A stretch of 64,000 bases of DNA from Sulfurovaceae bacterium. GTDB taxonomy: Bacteria; Campylobacterota; Campylobacteria; Campylobacterales; Sulfurovaceae. Position 1 is the first letter of the stretch. Each line of letters starts with the position of its first letter. The translations under genes were made by a program, and so were the position numbers. Shown piece after piece: positions 16,784-49,147 of the stretch. The DNA is taken from assembly GCA_028715055.1 (NCBI GenBank), contig JAQTLE010000002.1, positions 124,001-188,000 of the forward strand, read 5' to 3'. The notes beneath the pieces were generated by a model that searched no databases, was not told the DNA's origin, and saw only the letters and a list, made by a program, of their open reading frames with translations.

Positions 16784-17031
16784 AACAAAGTTTTTAAGCT
16801 CTAATTTATCATTTATATTTATAATATATTGTACTTATCCATAAAAATATTGAATTATATTTATGGATATTTAATACCAAAAAGCTTTTTAATGCCAACT
16901 GTTTTATCTCACAAATATATCATTTATTTTTCATATTATATTACTTTAACATAAATTATATTTAATTATTTTATAGATGTTTAATATAGGAAACTTTTTT
17001 AAAAGTAATTTTTATGATATAATTCCATCCA

Positions 17032-17373
17032 AGGTGCGATAGGTAGTTGCTATCGATTTATCGGTAGAGGAAAGTCCGAGCTACAAGTGAGACAAGACTC
17101 CACCTAACGGGTGGCCAGAGTAATCTGAGGGCAAGTGCAACAGAGAGAAGACTACCGCTAAAGCGGTCAAAGGTGAAAGGGTGGGGTAAGAGCCCACCGG
17201 TACCTGTGGTAACATGGGTAGCCAGGTAAACCCTGTCTGTAGCAAGAAGTATATGGTACAAGTCTCACATTTTAGTCAAGCTCGCTTGACGAGATACTTC
17301 GCTCGAGCCATGTGGTAACATATGGCCTAGATAAATAACTACCCACGACAGAACTCGGCTTATCGTCGCACCT
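17032..17373 (+). ncRNA. rnpB: RNase P RNA (bacterial class A)
   Basis: GAGGAAAGTCCGAGC and ACAGAACTCGGCTTATCG signatures; 5' aggtgcga pairs with 3' tcgcacct (P1). Confidence 0.93.
17359..17373 (+). repeat. attL core
   Basis: CTTATCGTCGCACCT, identical to 53063-53077. Confidence 0.9.
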
Positions 17374-17545
17374 GTCATATAATCATAACCTCCCATACAC
17401 TACTATATGCCCTGAAATACGGACTTTGAGCATTTTTCAACTCTTTACATTTTATACAAAATACTATACAATACCAAGCAGAAGTGTACCCAGAAGTGTA
17501 CCCATTTGGGTATTTTTGGAAATGGGTACACCCAAAGGGGTACAA

Positions 17546-18589
17546 ATGACACCTACACGGTACGAAGGCGTGTATTATCAAATTAATCGCAACGGCAAAA
17601 AAACCTACATCGCGCGCTATAAAATCAATGGCAAAAGTCACAAAAAAGTGCTAGGTATGGAGCCAGAGATTAACGCACTCACAGCACACCGCCTAAGATA
17701 TGAGATCATCGAGGGGCATAAGGGCGGTGGCGACTATACCATAGATGAGTATTTCGAGAGGTATTGCGCTGCCAGAGAGGCTACTTTGTCGCACAGTTGG
17801 TATTATAATATCCGGAAAAATTATCGCAAACATCTCCAGTCATTCATTGGCAAGAAATATCCACACCAAGTCTCCAGCGATGAGATCCAAAAAATAATGA
17901 ATGATATGCTCGGCACTGGGTATAAGCCCTCCACCGTAAAGCAAATCAAGGACTGTGTGAGTGGACTGTATGCATATCTGATACGCAATGGTGTAGAGAC
18001 AGAAAACATCGGCAAGGTCCTTGAACTTCCCAAATTTGACAATAAGATCTACTTTACCACGACGATTGATGAAGCCAAGAGGCTATATGAGATCATAACT
18101 ACATATCATGACATCAAGTGGCGCACCTATTTTACATTTTTACTCCATGGACGTCGCAAAAGTGAGGTGATGTTGATGCGCTGGGAATACATCAATTGGG
18201 AGTTAATGAGCTATAGAGTGCCGGCAGATAATGTCAAAACGGTCAAAGAGATAAACGCTCCTATGCTGCCGATATTGGCTGAGTGCCTGCGGCTGCTAGG
18301 AGTGAAAGATAGTGGCTGGATATTTGATGGCGGCGCGGATGGGCATATATCGCTGACGGGGATAGATTTTCAATGGAGAAACATCAAGATGTTAGCTAAT
18401 TTGCCAAAGATGAGACTGCATGATCTGCGGCATTTTATAGGCTTTTGGGCGATAAACCAAGGCGCTACATTAGAGCAGATAGGATATGTGCTAGGACATC
18501 AAAGTATCAACACTACTAAGCGATATTCAAATCTAAAGCTAGATACCGCGTCCAAAGTGCTAGGAGACGTGTTTAAATCGCTTTCTTAG
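17546..18589 (+). CDS. tyrosine recombinase integrase
   Basis: C-terminal MRLHDLRHFIGFWAINQGATLEQIGYVLGHQSINTTKRY; start chosen after the arm-site repeats. Confidence 0.93.
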   Translation: MTPTRYEGVYYQINRNGKKTYIARYKINGKSHKKVLGMEPEINALTAHRLRYEIIEGHKGGGDYTIDEYFERYCAAREATLSHSWYYNIRKNYRKHLQSFIGKKYPHQVSSDEIQKIMNDMLGTGYKPSTVKQIKDCVSGLYAYLIRNGVETENIGKVLELPKFDNKIYFTTTIDEAKRLYEIITTYHDIKWRTYFTFLLHGRRKSEVMLMRWEYINWELMSYRVPADNVKTVKEINAPMLPILAECLRLLGVKDSGWIFDGGADGHISLTGIDFQWRNIKMLANLPKMRLHDLRHFIGFWAINQGATLEQIGYVLGHQSINTTKRYSNLKLDTASKVLGDVFKSLS

Positions 18590-24077: not shown

Positions 24078-24233
24078 AACCTCTCCTTTGGTTTTGTTGG
24101 TTTTTTTGTAACCTTGCAGCAATTTATGGTAATTAGCTATAATTACCTATGAATAGATATAAATTGTTGTAATTGGATTATAGACAAATTGTTTTGTCTT
24201 TGTCAAGGCTTTTTGTATAAAAAAAGGAAAAAT

Positions 24234-24890
24234 ATGGAGAATTGGGGTTTAAGATTAAAAGAAATACGCGAAAAAAATGAATTATCACAAAATGACATAG
24301 CAATTCCACTGCAAAAGGATGTAACACAAATAAGCAGATATGAGCGCGGGCAAGGGGCTTCTAAGATGCCAAAATCTTTTAAAGAAGATTTAAAAGAGCT
24401 TTTTACTAATGGCGAATTAAAATATATTGCTGAGGGCGGAGAATTAATTGAAGAAGAGTCCAATATTGTCATGCTCCCATATTATCCGGAAACATATGCC
24501 AGCGCAGGCGGTGGGGCGTTTTCGTATCTGGAAAACAGTGAGCCGATGAGCTTTAGTAGGGATTTTTTAGAGCTGCACCTAGGGCTCAAAACATTTAAAA
24601 ATATATTTATCATCAATGCCACAGGCGATAGTATGGAAGGTACATTTAGTAATGGGGCATTACTATTCGTCAATCCATACGAGAATGAAGACCGCAAGCT
24701 TAGAGACGGCGGCATATATGTGATAGATGTAGATGACACCAGGCTAGTAAAGAGAGTGACTTACAATCCATTGGATCAGTCACACACCCTCATCAGTGAT
24801 AATGCTGTATATGGCAGCATCAAAGTATATAAGTTCAATGAAAGCGCCAAGTTCATCGGCAGGGTAGTAGGTTTTTTTGATAGGGTATAA
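24234..24890 (+). CDS. CI-like repressor with HTH and S24 peptidase domain
   Basis: LRLKEIREKNELSQNDIA; ATGDSMEGTFSNGALLFVN. Confidence 0.9.
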   Translation: MENWGLRLKEIREKNELSQNDIAIPLQKDVTQISRYERGQGASKMPKSFKEDLKELFTNGELKYIAEGGELIEEESNIVMLPYYPETYASAGGGAFSYLENSEPMSFSRDFLELHLGLKTFKNIFIINATGDSMEGTFSNGALLFVNPYENEDRKLRDGGIYVIDVDDTRLVKRVTYNPLDQSHTLISDNAVYGSIKVYKFNESAKFIGRVVGFFDRV

Positions 24891-25065: not shown

Positions 25066-25782
25066 ATGGCACTTCTGAAATGTAAAGAATGTGGGTCTAG
25101 CGTAAGTTCCAGTGCAAAAAAATGTCTAAATTGTGGCAAGCCTACTTCTCCGCAAACATCGTGGATGACATGGACGGTTCTTACATTAATCATATTTGGG
25201 GGGCTAGTTTCTGTTACTAATAATCGAGCAAAAAACGATATACAAGCAAATGCCCCATCGACACAGCAAACGGCCGTTCCGACTGTTCCGTTAAGCGCAG
25301 CCCAGAAGCAAGCTAACAAGAAAAATGATGAAGAACGGATGAAAAAAAAGCTTGATGAGATAGAAGACAGATTGTCAGAGAACAACAAATATATGCAAAA
25401 ATACTACGCCAGAGATGACCAGCTGCAAAAAGCGAATGAAGATTATCTATGGGTATTTGCCACAGAAACAGCAACAGATAGCAATCTATCAAAGAGCATT
25501 GTCAAAAAAGCTCTCGCACTCAAACCCAAGATAGAGCAGCAAGCTAGAAAAATGTATGCATCAGTACTGGAGCATAAAATGATGGATGCCAGGCAAGATA
25601 TATCATTCTCCGCCAAAGGCAAAGAAAATAAAACACTATATGTAAAGTGGGTGTTGATGGGGAATGCTACCGCCTATAACTTTCATAAAGAGATAGCAGA
25701 AAAAGCAAGAGGTTATGGCTTTACTAAGGTTGTTTATACTGATGGATATAATGAGACATGGACTTATGATCTTAGATCATAG
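25066..25782 (+). CDS. zinc-ribbon, TM-anchored protein
   Basis: CKECGSSVSSSAKKCLNCG then TM segment and coiled region. Confidence 0.65.
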   Translation: MALLKCKECGSSVSSSAKKCLNCGKPTSPQTSWMTWTVLTLIIFGGLVSVTNNRAKNDIQANAPSTQQTAVPTVPLSAAQKQANKKNDEERMKKKLDEIEDRLSENNKYMQKYYARDDQLQKANEDYLWVFATETATDSNLSKSIVKKALALKPKIEQQARKMYASVLEHKMMDARQDISFSAKGKENKTLYVKWVLMGNATAYNFHKEIAEKARGYGFTKVVYTDGYNETWTYDLRS

Positions 25783-25802
25783 CTTTTTATGATGTTTAAA
25801 AA

Positions 25803-25838
25803 AGAGGTTGTGTCTAGGGGCTGCAACCCCTAGACACA
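25803..25838 (-). terminator. terminator of the minus-strand 5S/micropeptide unit
   Basis: 12-bp stem tgtgtctagggg/cccctagacaca; T6 on minus strand. Confidence 0.75.
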
Positions 25839-25850
25839 GTAGCCATTTAT

Positions 25851-25931
25851 TTAATGAAATAAAAATTTCATTAAATGACCAACTAAAACTAAAAAATACC
25901 CGAATATAATAACAACTTCAATTATAAGCAT
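25851..25931 (-). CDS. 26-aa hydrophobic micropeptide MLIIEVVIIFGYFLVLVGHLMKFLFH
   Basis: strong SD (aggaggt) 5-6 nt upstream, single TM segment. Confidence 0.5.
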   Translation of the reverse strand: MLIIEVVIIFGYFLVLVGHLMKFLFH

Positions 25932-25952
25932 TTAATACCTCCTATATTTACT

Positions 25953-26073
25953 CTATAGGCAATAACCTACTTTCCCATACTAGACAAGCATAGTATCATC
26001 GGCGATTAGAGGCTTGACTTCTAGGTTCGGGATGGATCTAGGTATTTATCCCTCTATCTATCTTCACCTATAG
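25953..26073 (-). rRNA. rrf: 5S rRNA (isolated copy inside the prophage)
   Basis: minus strand reads ctataggtgaag...ccatcccgaacctagaagtcaagcctctaatcgccgatgatac...tgggaaagtaggttattgcctatag; helix I ctatagg/cctatag and helix II tagagg/cctcta preserved. Confidence 0.85.
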
Positions 26074-26080
26074 GCAAAAA

Positions 26081-26117
26081 AAAAGCCCCGGTAGGATTTA
26101 ATCCTACCGGGGCTTTT
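26081..26117. terminator. bidirectional hairpin terminator
   Basis: 17-bp perfect stem aaaagccccggtaggat/atcctaccggggctttt; T9 on minus, T4 on plus. Confidence 0.8.
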
Positions 26118-26350
26118 GAGGTGTTCATGCTAATGTGTTTGCAGACACATATAATAGAACTGTTATTGATCGGGTATGGAGGCTCTTAAGTGGCAACTCC
26201 TCTATATAACTCATTAGGTACATAAAAGAATAGCCTTTAATATACAAATTATAGTGCACCAACCTTAAATCAAAATAAGAAAAAGACCTTTTTATAATGA
26301 CTTTTTAGGTATTTCTTTACTATTTTAGTGTGTTTTTAAACTAAAAGAGG

Positions 26351-47489: not shown

Positions 47490-47885
47490 ATGGGCATAAA
47501 TAGCGAAGCGATTTTAAATCATAAGTTTTTGGAGATGGCAAAGCTGCTTAATGTATATCTCAATCATTTTCCAAAACATGAAAAATATGCACTCGCTAAT
47601 AATATTAGAAATACCGCGTACTGCATGTACGATCTTATCACTGAGTGTCAAAAAAGGTATTTTAAAAAAACATCATTGACGGAGCTTGATATCGTTCATG
47701 AGAAATTGAGAATGCAGATATATCTTGCAAACGAACTTGGATATTTTGGGTTCAAAGACGGGAAGGAGAGCCAACAGGCAAATAGTGTAAAAAGATTTAT
47801 AGCGCTAACCAAACTCATAGATGAACTTGGGCGAATGATCGGCGCATGGATCAATAAATTAAAAAATATGGCAAATTTTAAATGA
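47490..47885 (+). CDS. avd: accessory variability determinant (Avd), four-helix-bundle protein
   Basis: 131 aa, LNHFPKHEKYALANNIRNTAYCMYDLI; between target and RT. Confidence 0.88.
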   Translation: MGINSEAILNHKFLEMAKLLNVYLNHFPKHEKYALANNIRNTAYCMYDLITECQKRYFKKTSLTELDIVHEKLRMQIYLANELGYFGFKDGKESQQANSVKRFIALTKLIDELGRMIGAWINKLKNMANFK

Positions 47886-49147
47886 ATAACTTAGGGCAAC
47901 ATAGCAATATGAAAAATGAAGTCATCGCCGGCGGCAATTGGAACAATTCTTCCAATGCCGGTGTGGGCAATGTGAATTTGAACAACAATCGTACGAATTC
48001 CAATAACAATGTTGGGGTTCGCGACTTTATTTCCATGCCTGAAACATCAAGAGATGATACTGGAAATATAGGGGTATGTTGTCCTGCTAAAAGCGAAATC
48101 AAAAATACAAATAATCTTTTGAGTAACTTAGTTGAAAATCAGATTAAATCAAAACGAATAGGCAATTTATTTGAAAAAGCGTTTAGTGTAGAAAATCTAT
48201 ACCAGGCTTTTTTGGATGCTAGAAAAGGCAAAAGAAAAAAAAGAGCGACGCTGAATTTTGAGAAAAATCTAGGCACAGAGCTCTTGGATCTATATAGTGA
48301 GCTGCATGATGGGGATTATAAGACAAAACCATATAAGCAATTTAAAGTCTATGAACCCAAAGAGAGGGTAATCAATGCCCCTCATTTTAGAGACTTAGTG
48401 GTGCAGCATGCTATATATAGAGTTATTTATCCTATATTTGATAAGTCTTTTGCGGATACCAGCTATGCGTGTCGCAAAGGCGGGGGCACGCACAAGGCAA
48501 GTGCCTATACTCAAAAAGAGATGAGAAAGCATGACGGAGAGCTTTATTATGTGAAGCTTGATATTCGTAAATTTTTCTACAACATCGATAGAGAAATCCT
48601 GCGAAAACTTTTCGAGAAAAAAATAAAAGACAAAAAGTTTATAGAGATCATGATGCAGTTTGCAAATATGGACACGAGCAAAGGCATACCGATAGGTAAT
48701 CTTCTAAGCCAACTATACGCGCTGATATATATGAACCCCGTGGACCATTACGCAAAAAGAGAGCTAAAAGTGAAGTCATATGTCCGCTACGTAGATGATA
48801 TTGTGGCAATCGGGGTAACGCTTGATATTGCTAAAAATATAAAAAATAAAATAGAAAAATTCATACAAGATAAGTTGAACCTGGAATATTCTCACTGGAT
48901 GATCTCCAAAATAAAAAAAGGCATTAATTTTGTAGGGTACCGCACATGGAAAAGCGTGAAGTTTGTCCGGAAGCATAGTATGTACAAATTTAAAAAAGCA
49001 ATCAAAAAATCTCGTATTGAGTCAATAGTATCTCTGATAGGACACGCAAAGGGAACGGCGTCGACTTCGTATTTTAGATCACTGTTGGCTGAACATGAAA
49101 TTTTAAACCAAATACCAAAGAGGAGCCTAGCATGTTTAAATATGTAA
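47882..49147 (+). CDS. DGR reverse transcriptase
   Basis: LDIRKFFYNID, GIPIGNLLSQLYA (DGR-type motif 4), YVRYVDD catalytic motif. Confidence 0.96.
   Translation: MNNLGQHSNMKNEVIAGGNWNNSSNAGVGNVNLNNNRTNSNNNVGVRDFISMPETSRDDTGNIGVCCPAKSEIKNTNNLLSNLVENQIKSKRIGNLFEKAFSVENLYQAFLDARKGKRKKRATLNFEKNLGTELLDLYSELHDGDYKTKPYKQFKVYEPKERVINAPHFRDLVVQHAIYRVIYPIFDKSFADTSYACRKGGGTHKASAYTQKEMRKHDGELYYVKLDIRKFFYNIDREILRKLFEKKIKDKKFIEIMMQFANMDTSKGIPIGNLLSQLYALIYMNPVDHYAKRELKVKSYVRYVDDIVAIGVTLDIAKNIKNKIEKFIQDKLNLEYSHWMISKIKKGINFVGYRTWKSVKFVRKHSMYKFKKAIKKSRIESIVSLIGHAKGTASTSYFRSLLAEHEILNQIPKRSLACLNM
47921..48025 (+). repeat. DGR template repeat (TR)
   Basis: AAC/AAT-rich; offset 587 bp from VR; in frame with RT ORF. 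Confidence 0.95.

Follow-up and report, generated by a model that had tools for sequence, protein, structure and literature searches.

The presence of a 5S rRNA inside a prophage raises the question of whether it is a gene in its own right, a relic, or a part of something larger. In the window (the whole stretch of 64 kb from a Sulfurovaceae bacterium that we analysed), such an RNA lies on the minus strand, where a preliminary description, made from the sequence alone, had placed an isolated, full-length 5S gene.

A full-length 5S rRNA-like RNA in a prophage

When the Rfam check proposed in that description was run, RF00001 matched the window at 26071-25954 (-) over model positions 1-120, with 71.1 bits (E 5.2e-13) against a gathering score of 38 bits. 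The conserved 5S signatures quoted beforehand are all present and, beyond helices I and II, which had been said to be preserved, the standard helices as a whole are kept, 32 of 34 pairs being canonical in the standard 5S fold. The window RNA is a divergent but structurally constrained full-length 5S. It does not occupy the operon position 3′ of a 23S gene, and neither 16S nor 23S was found within the 64-kb window. The RNA is indeed isolated at this scale, but this says little about the host, since the draft assembly contains no 16S or 23S anywhere, and the ordinary 5S is reduced in it to 3′ fragments with which contigs C1 and C2 begin. The window copy is the sole full 5S in the host assembly.

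The RNA sits in a 379-kb contig among phage genes, and these genes, together with flanking direct repeats, bear out the prophage that had been proposed around it:

17359-53077: prophage holding the cassette, with 15-bp direct repeats CTTATCGTCGCACCT at 17359 (3′ end of rnpB) and 53063
17426-18589: integrase gene of the prophage
24189-24890: CI-like repressor gene of the prophage

Further prophage genes in the window encode a CII-like regulator, DnaB, TerL, portal, capsid and tape measure. The RNase P RNA gene (rnpB) occupies 17031-17378 at the prophage edge, and a reverse transcriptase gene (RVT_1, 47882-49147) in the tail region may be part of a diversity-generating retroelement.

Organization of the cassette

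The 5S-like RNA takes its place in an ordered series of parts, namely a promoter, an sRNA of about 165 nt, an intrinsic terminator, the 5S-like RNA itself, a ribosome binding site (RBS), a hydrophobic micro-ORF of 26 aa and a second terminator:

26248-26253, minus strand: probable -10 element (TATAAT) of the sRNA promoter, read from the sequence; a TATAAT also lies upstream of the sRNAs of loci L050, L052 and L053 and of genome G115
26076-26241, minus strand: putative antisense sRNA that would act as the antitoxin RNA, with predicted ends, the 3′ end at terminator 1; leader conserved with genomes G115 and G123, complementary to its own micro-ORF
26145-26177, minus strand: sRNA segment complementary to the micro-ORF start, pairing imperfectly with 25931-25896 over about 30 bp (shuffle p 0.005)
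26076-26117, minus strand: strong intrinsic terminator 1, between the sRNA and the 5S, a hairpin with a 17-bp stem and a T9 tail
25954-26071, minus strand: full-length 5S rRNA-like RNA, probable 5′ domain of the micro-ORF message, with covariation across cassettes
25938-25943, minus strand: ribosome binding site AGGAGG, read from the sequence
25851-25931, minus strand: micro-ORF MLIIEVVIIFGYFLVLVGHLMKFLFH, putative membrane toxin, a hydrophobic 26-aa peptide alignable with the micro-ORFs of other cassettes
25798-25838, minus strand: intrinsic terminator 2, with a 13-bp stem and a T-rich tail

Since a sigma-70 consensus scan did not list the TATAAT at 26248-26253, the sRNA promoter is a predicted one, as are the transcript ends of the cassette. 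The 5S-like RNA starts directly after the GCC found 3′ of terminator 1, and the hairpin-T9-GC junction is shared by the other cassettes with a 5S. On the minus strand the scan listed no promoter-like site from terminator 1 to the micro-ORF, which is weak evidence because the same scan also skipped the upstream TATAAT. The window peptide has a hydrophobicity of 2.9 over 15 residues and no Pfam family was found for it; no known Rfam leader or riboswitch in the cassette scored above cut-off. Two further ideas about the sRNA were dropped: a leader peptide, whose window frame is, by eye, not kept in G115, and antitermination through a host-type boxA, to which there is only a weak likeness. Genes for zinc-ribbon proteins lie beside the cassette both in the window (25066-25782) and on the L052 contig of genome G031 (340-909).

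Recurrence on mobile elements

Besides the window, four distinct places were found to carry the 5S-bearing layout, and one more has a near-copy. BLAST of the window 5S against 175 genomes of the family returned a second isolated copy in G115 (L036) together with the near-copy, in G123, which is cut off by the contig end. G115 belongs to another genus of the window's family and carries its cassette on a conjugative element, adjoining a TrwC relaxase and type IV secretion genes. Model searches R2 and R3, over order and family samples, added G411, G530 and G538, all three in a second family that is probably Arcobacteraceae, since its 5S resembles Aliarcobacter rrn 5S. The G411 cassette lies in a prophage adjoining rnpB, near a CI-like repressor, DnaB and terminase, that of G530 is close to phage-like ATPase and HNH families, and that of G538 is close to a contig end, beside a HipA_C gene (L158 1284-2279). 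Three of the five distinct 5S cassettes sit in prophages or a conjugative element. Throughout the cassettes, the micro-ORFs encode small hydrophobic peptides and a terminator stands at the end. The window feature belongs to a mobile cassette that recurs, and is not an isolated 5S gene; transcription and toxicity of the cassette, like the role of its 5S, are putative.

Ordinary 5S can mask members of the cassette, G411 (in R2) and G538 (in R3) having scored inside the ordinary range, and over the window's own family R3 gave no more 5S cassettes above that range. L092 and L150 turned out to be ordinary rrn 5S, and L044, a pattern match in Rhizobiales, was put down to chance. The RNase P RNA gene of G411 (L094 17103-17430) adjoins the integrase of its prophage, an integration site shared with the window. 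In G530 (L102) a short hairpin followed by seven T was seen by eye between the 5S-like RNA and the RBS; with it the 5S might end as an RNA of its own, or the RBS might be paired.

A model of the leader and terminator (R1) also drew G112 (L050), G031 (L052), G105 (L053) and G046 (L059), in which the order of parts is identical and a UTR of about 50 nt stands in place of the 5S; the L052 contig has an integrase as well as the zinc-ribbon gene nearby. Since these four cassettes do without it, the 5S is dispensable for the basic module. The R1 matches L051 and L054-L058 were judged by eye to be terminators or chance. One of them, L058 (G125), has a leader and terminator like those of the cassettes without 5S and no clear hydrophobic micro-ORF, and is perhaps a decayed member.

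Looking for the cassette in related phages, as the preliminary description had advised, succeeded with the G411 prophage and failed with the phage collections, which like the plasmid collections gave no 5S cassette. The plasmid matches inspected were ordinary rrn operons of Sulfurovum mangrovi and Aliarcobacter cibarius pACIB, lying on replicons filed as plasmids (395 kb in the former, L006; pACIB, L157). Of two IMG/VR patterns with a T-run ahead of the 5S, one gave none and the other a single match without 5S, while a strict 5S core pattern run over 2.9 million viral contigs yielded four matches, all close to contig ends. Phage-borne 5S genes appear to be very rare.

Complementarity between the sRNA and the micro-ORF

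For nine cassettes we compared the sRNA body with the UTR after the 5S plus 45 nt of the ORF and took the best local pairing score. The own sRNA-target pair scored highest in every one of the nine columns and in all but one of the nine rows, with shuffle p values of 0.005 to 0.04 except in G411, whose complementarity was not better than that of shuffles (p 0.21). The total own score of 424 was reached by none of 200,000 sampled non-identity permutations (best 418), and for the five 5S-type cassettes alone the own set came first of 120 (236 vs 230), these margins being modest and the sRNA segments having been chosen by the analyst with the candidates in view. An earlier unconstrained duplex calculation, made without loop penalties, did not show the window pair and supported the cassettes without 5S well; the window pair appeared in the local pairing alignment. 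By predicted folding, the start region is less accessible in the read-through RNA than after terminator processing in eight of the nine cassettes, the window being the exception.

The cassette shares with type I toxin-antitoxin systems its small hydrophobic peptide and an sRNA complementary to the toxin message, weakly so in G411. Because of this complementarity, type I-like action is the best reading, and the pairing indicates a candidate type I-like (antisense) toxin-antitoxin module in a tandem, terminator-separated order.

Comparison with known systems

A small hydrophobic peptide, a message complementary to a small RNA and a common location on mobile elements also characterize the type I systems hok/sok, tisB/istR-1, shoB/ohsC, zor/orz, dinQ/agrB and fst (PMC4147584). 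In the systems described in that paper, however, the RNA is encoded opposite, divergently or convergently, whereas here it lies upstream on the same strand with a terminator between, and the message may begin with a 5S fold. In type III modules, an antitoxin RNA, an intrinsic terminator and the toxin gene follow one another on one strand, and read-through sets the ratio and keeps the RNA in excess; this order is common to ToxIN, to AbiF/RCd22 and to the window cassette (PMC4147584; PMC12373285). The target of the type III and AbiF RNAs is nevertheless the toxin protein, and ToxI is built of repeats, whereas in the window the RNA is complementary to the message and no tandem repeats occur in 25780-26300. 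Nor is there an endoribonuclease of the ToxN kind, the only ORF in the place of the toxin being the 26-aa peptide without family match.

In AapA/IsoA of Helicobacter pylori the antitoxin is an antisense RNA on the opposite strand. This type I system of the same phylum resembles the cassette in having a short toxic peptide under the control of RNA folding and of an antitoxin RNA (PMC6733600). Unlike the window cassette, it is not known to comprise a 5S. A 5S-like fold with a regulatory role inside a message exists in P5SM, in the plant TFIIIA pre-mRNA. Being eukaryotic, acting in splicing and having no known toxin or antisense RNA, P5SM serves as a lead only.

Conservation and origin of the 5S copies

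In an alignment of six cassette 5S, one of them partial, standard pairs filled 94.4% of cells, compared with 84.8% in shuffles and 32-42% in slid controls; this alignment had been fitted to the model, which favours the fold. Eleven pairs were altered on both sides (0 of 500 shuffles). At the 53 columns that are invariant among 28 ordinary 5S, four of the five cassette 5S differ at one each; for the window 5S the raw alignment gives six differences, and we attribute several of these to a shift from its extra bases. This near-complete retention of conserved positions suggests that the cassette 5S may be recognised by the host 5S machinery.

In a tree resting on 118 columns only, the window 5S groups with the 5S of its own family (99/99) and the other four with the second family (96/92), including that of G115, a genome of the first. 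Such a topology suggests that 5S may have been recruited twice, or been exchanged with that of the host; the test does not reject one common origin of the cassette copies (p-AU 0.11).

A possible role for the 5S domain

In our best explanation, to which we give a probability of about 0.6, a mobile type I-like toxin-antitoxin cassette expresses a 26-aa membrane peptide from a message whose 5′ untranslated domain is the 5S-like RNA. This reading builds on what the sequences show, namely the layout, its recurrence, the complementarity of the sRNAs to their own ORFs and the constrained 5S fold, and adds read-through transcription, toxicity and a role for the fold as inferences. One promoter would give the antisense sRNA, mostly stopping at terminator 1, and the minority of polymerases passing it would produce the toxin message, which after processing would start with the folded 5S RNA. 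The abundant sRNA would block translation of this message by pairing in trans with its start region; were the element lost, the sRNA would decay before the message and the peptide would be made. Host handling of 5S, by trimming up to the fold and by 5S-binding ribosomal proteins, may provide a defined, nuclease-resistant 5′ end. The placing of a terminator behind the antitoxin RNA and ahead of the toxin gene has precedents in type III and AbiF systems, which supports this explanation. The 5S domain would most likely act as a processed, stable 5′ end of the toxin message or as a sensor, processing and stability being the leading reading. Of the roles imagined in the preliminary description, an RNA scaffold for the downstream micro-ORF pointed in the right direction.

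As a sensor, the 5S domain would bind the free host ribosomal proteins L5, L18 or L25, or a phage factor that attacks 5S, and thereby alter how the toxin message is translated or degraded; superinfection, or a disturbance of ribosome assembly, would then fire the toxin. We entertain this tentatively: the domain retains positions that are invariant in ordinary 5S, as it should if host proteins have to recognise it, the window copy groups with the 5S of its own host family, and there is a known case of a phage protein, PhiKZ014, that clamps 5S rRNA at an early stage of infection (PMC10914614), but related cassettes exist without 5S and the analysis brought out no conserved alternative fold that would join 5S and RBS. 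It is equally tentative to regard the RNA as a bacterial regulatory 5S mimic, in which a full 5S fold would have entered a mobile toxin message, perhaps on more than one occasion and from host-type 5S, the output of the message being set by host 5S-binding proteins or by attack on 5S.

It seems unlikely that the element supplies a functional variant 5S for host ribosomes, or a decoy for 5S-binding proteins, with the micro-ORF cassette merely a neighbour. That the 5S core and fold are conserved almost throughout would suit such a role; however, the RNA holds a constant position between the terminator and the micro-ORF RBS in five distinct loci, the scan found no promoter of its own, and the same cassettes exist without 5S. 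With this placement recurring in other mobile elements, the captured, free-standing host gene supplying variant 5S that had been envisaged earlier finds little place. More improbable by far is that the RNA is a decayed piece of host 5S or the product of a chimeric assembly. Although the absence of the host's ordinary 5S, save fragments, from the assembly could be taken in its favour, the compensatory changes and kept pairs agree with the earlier view that the 5S is not decayed, the RNA lies well within a long contig among phage genes, and the chimera named beforehand as a possible objection is unlikely because the same layout is repeated in independent assemblies, two of them single-contig chromosomes.

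In the open-access literature we came across neither a phage 5S gene nor a toxin message led by 5S. To the tandem arrangement familiar from type III systems the cassette adds a candidate antisense module. It also places 5S, repeatedly and on mobile elements, at the head of a probable toxin message, which if true would be a new use for a ribosomal RNA and would offer a test system for the function of the 5S fold outside the ribosome.
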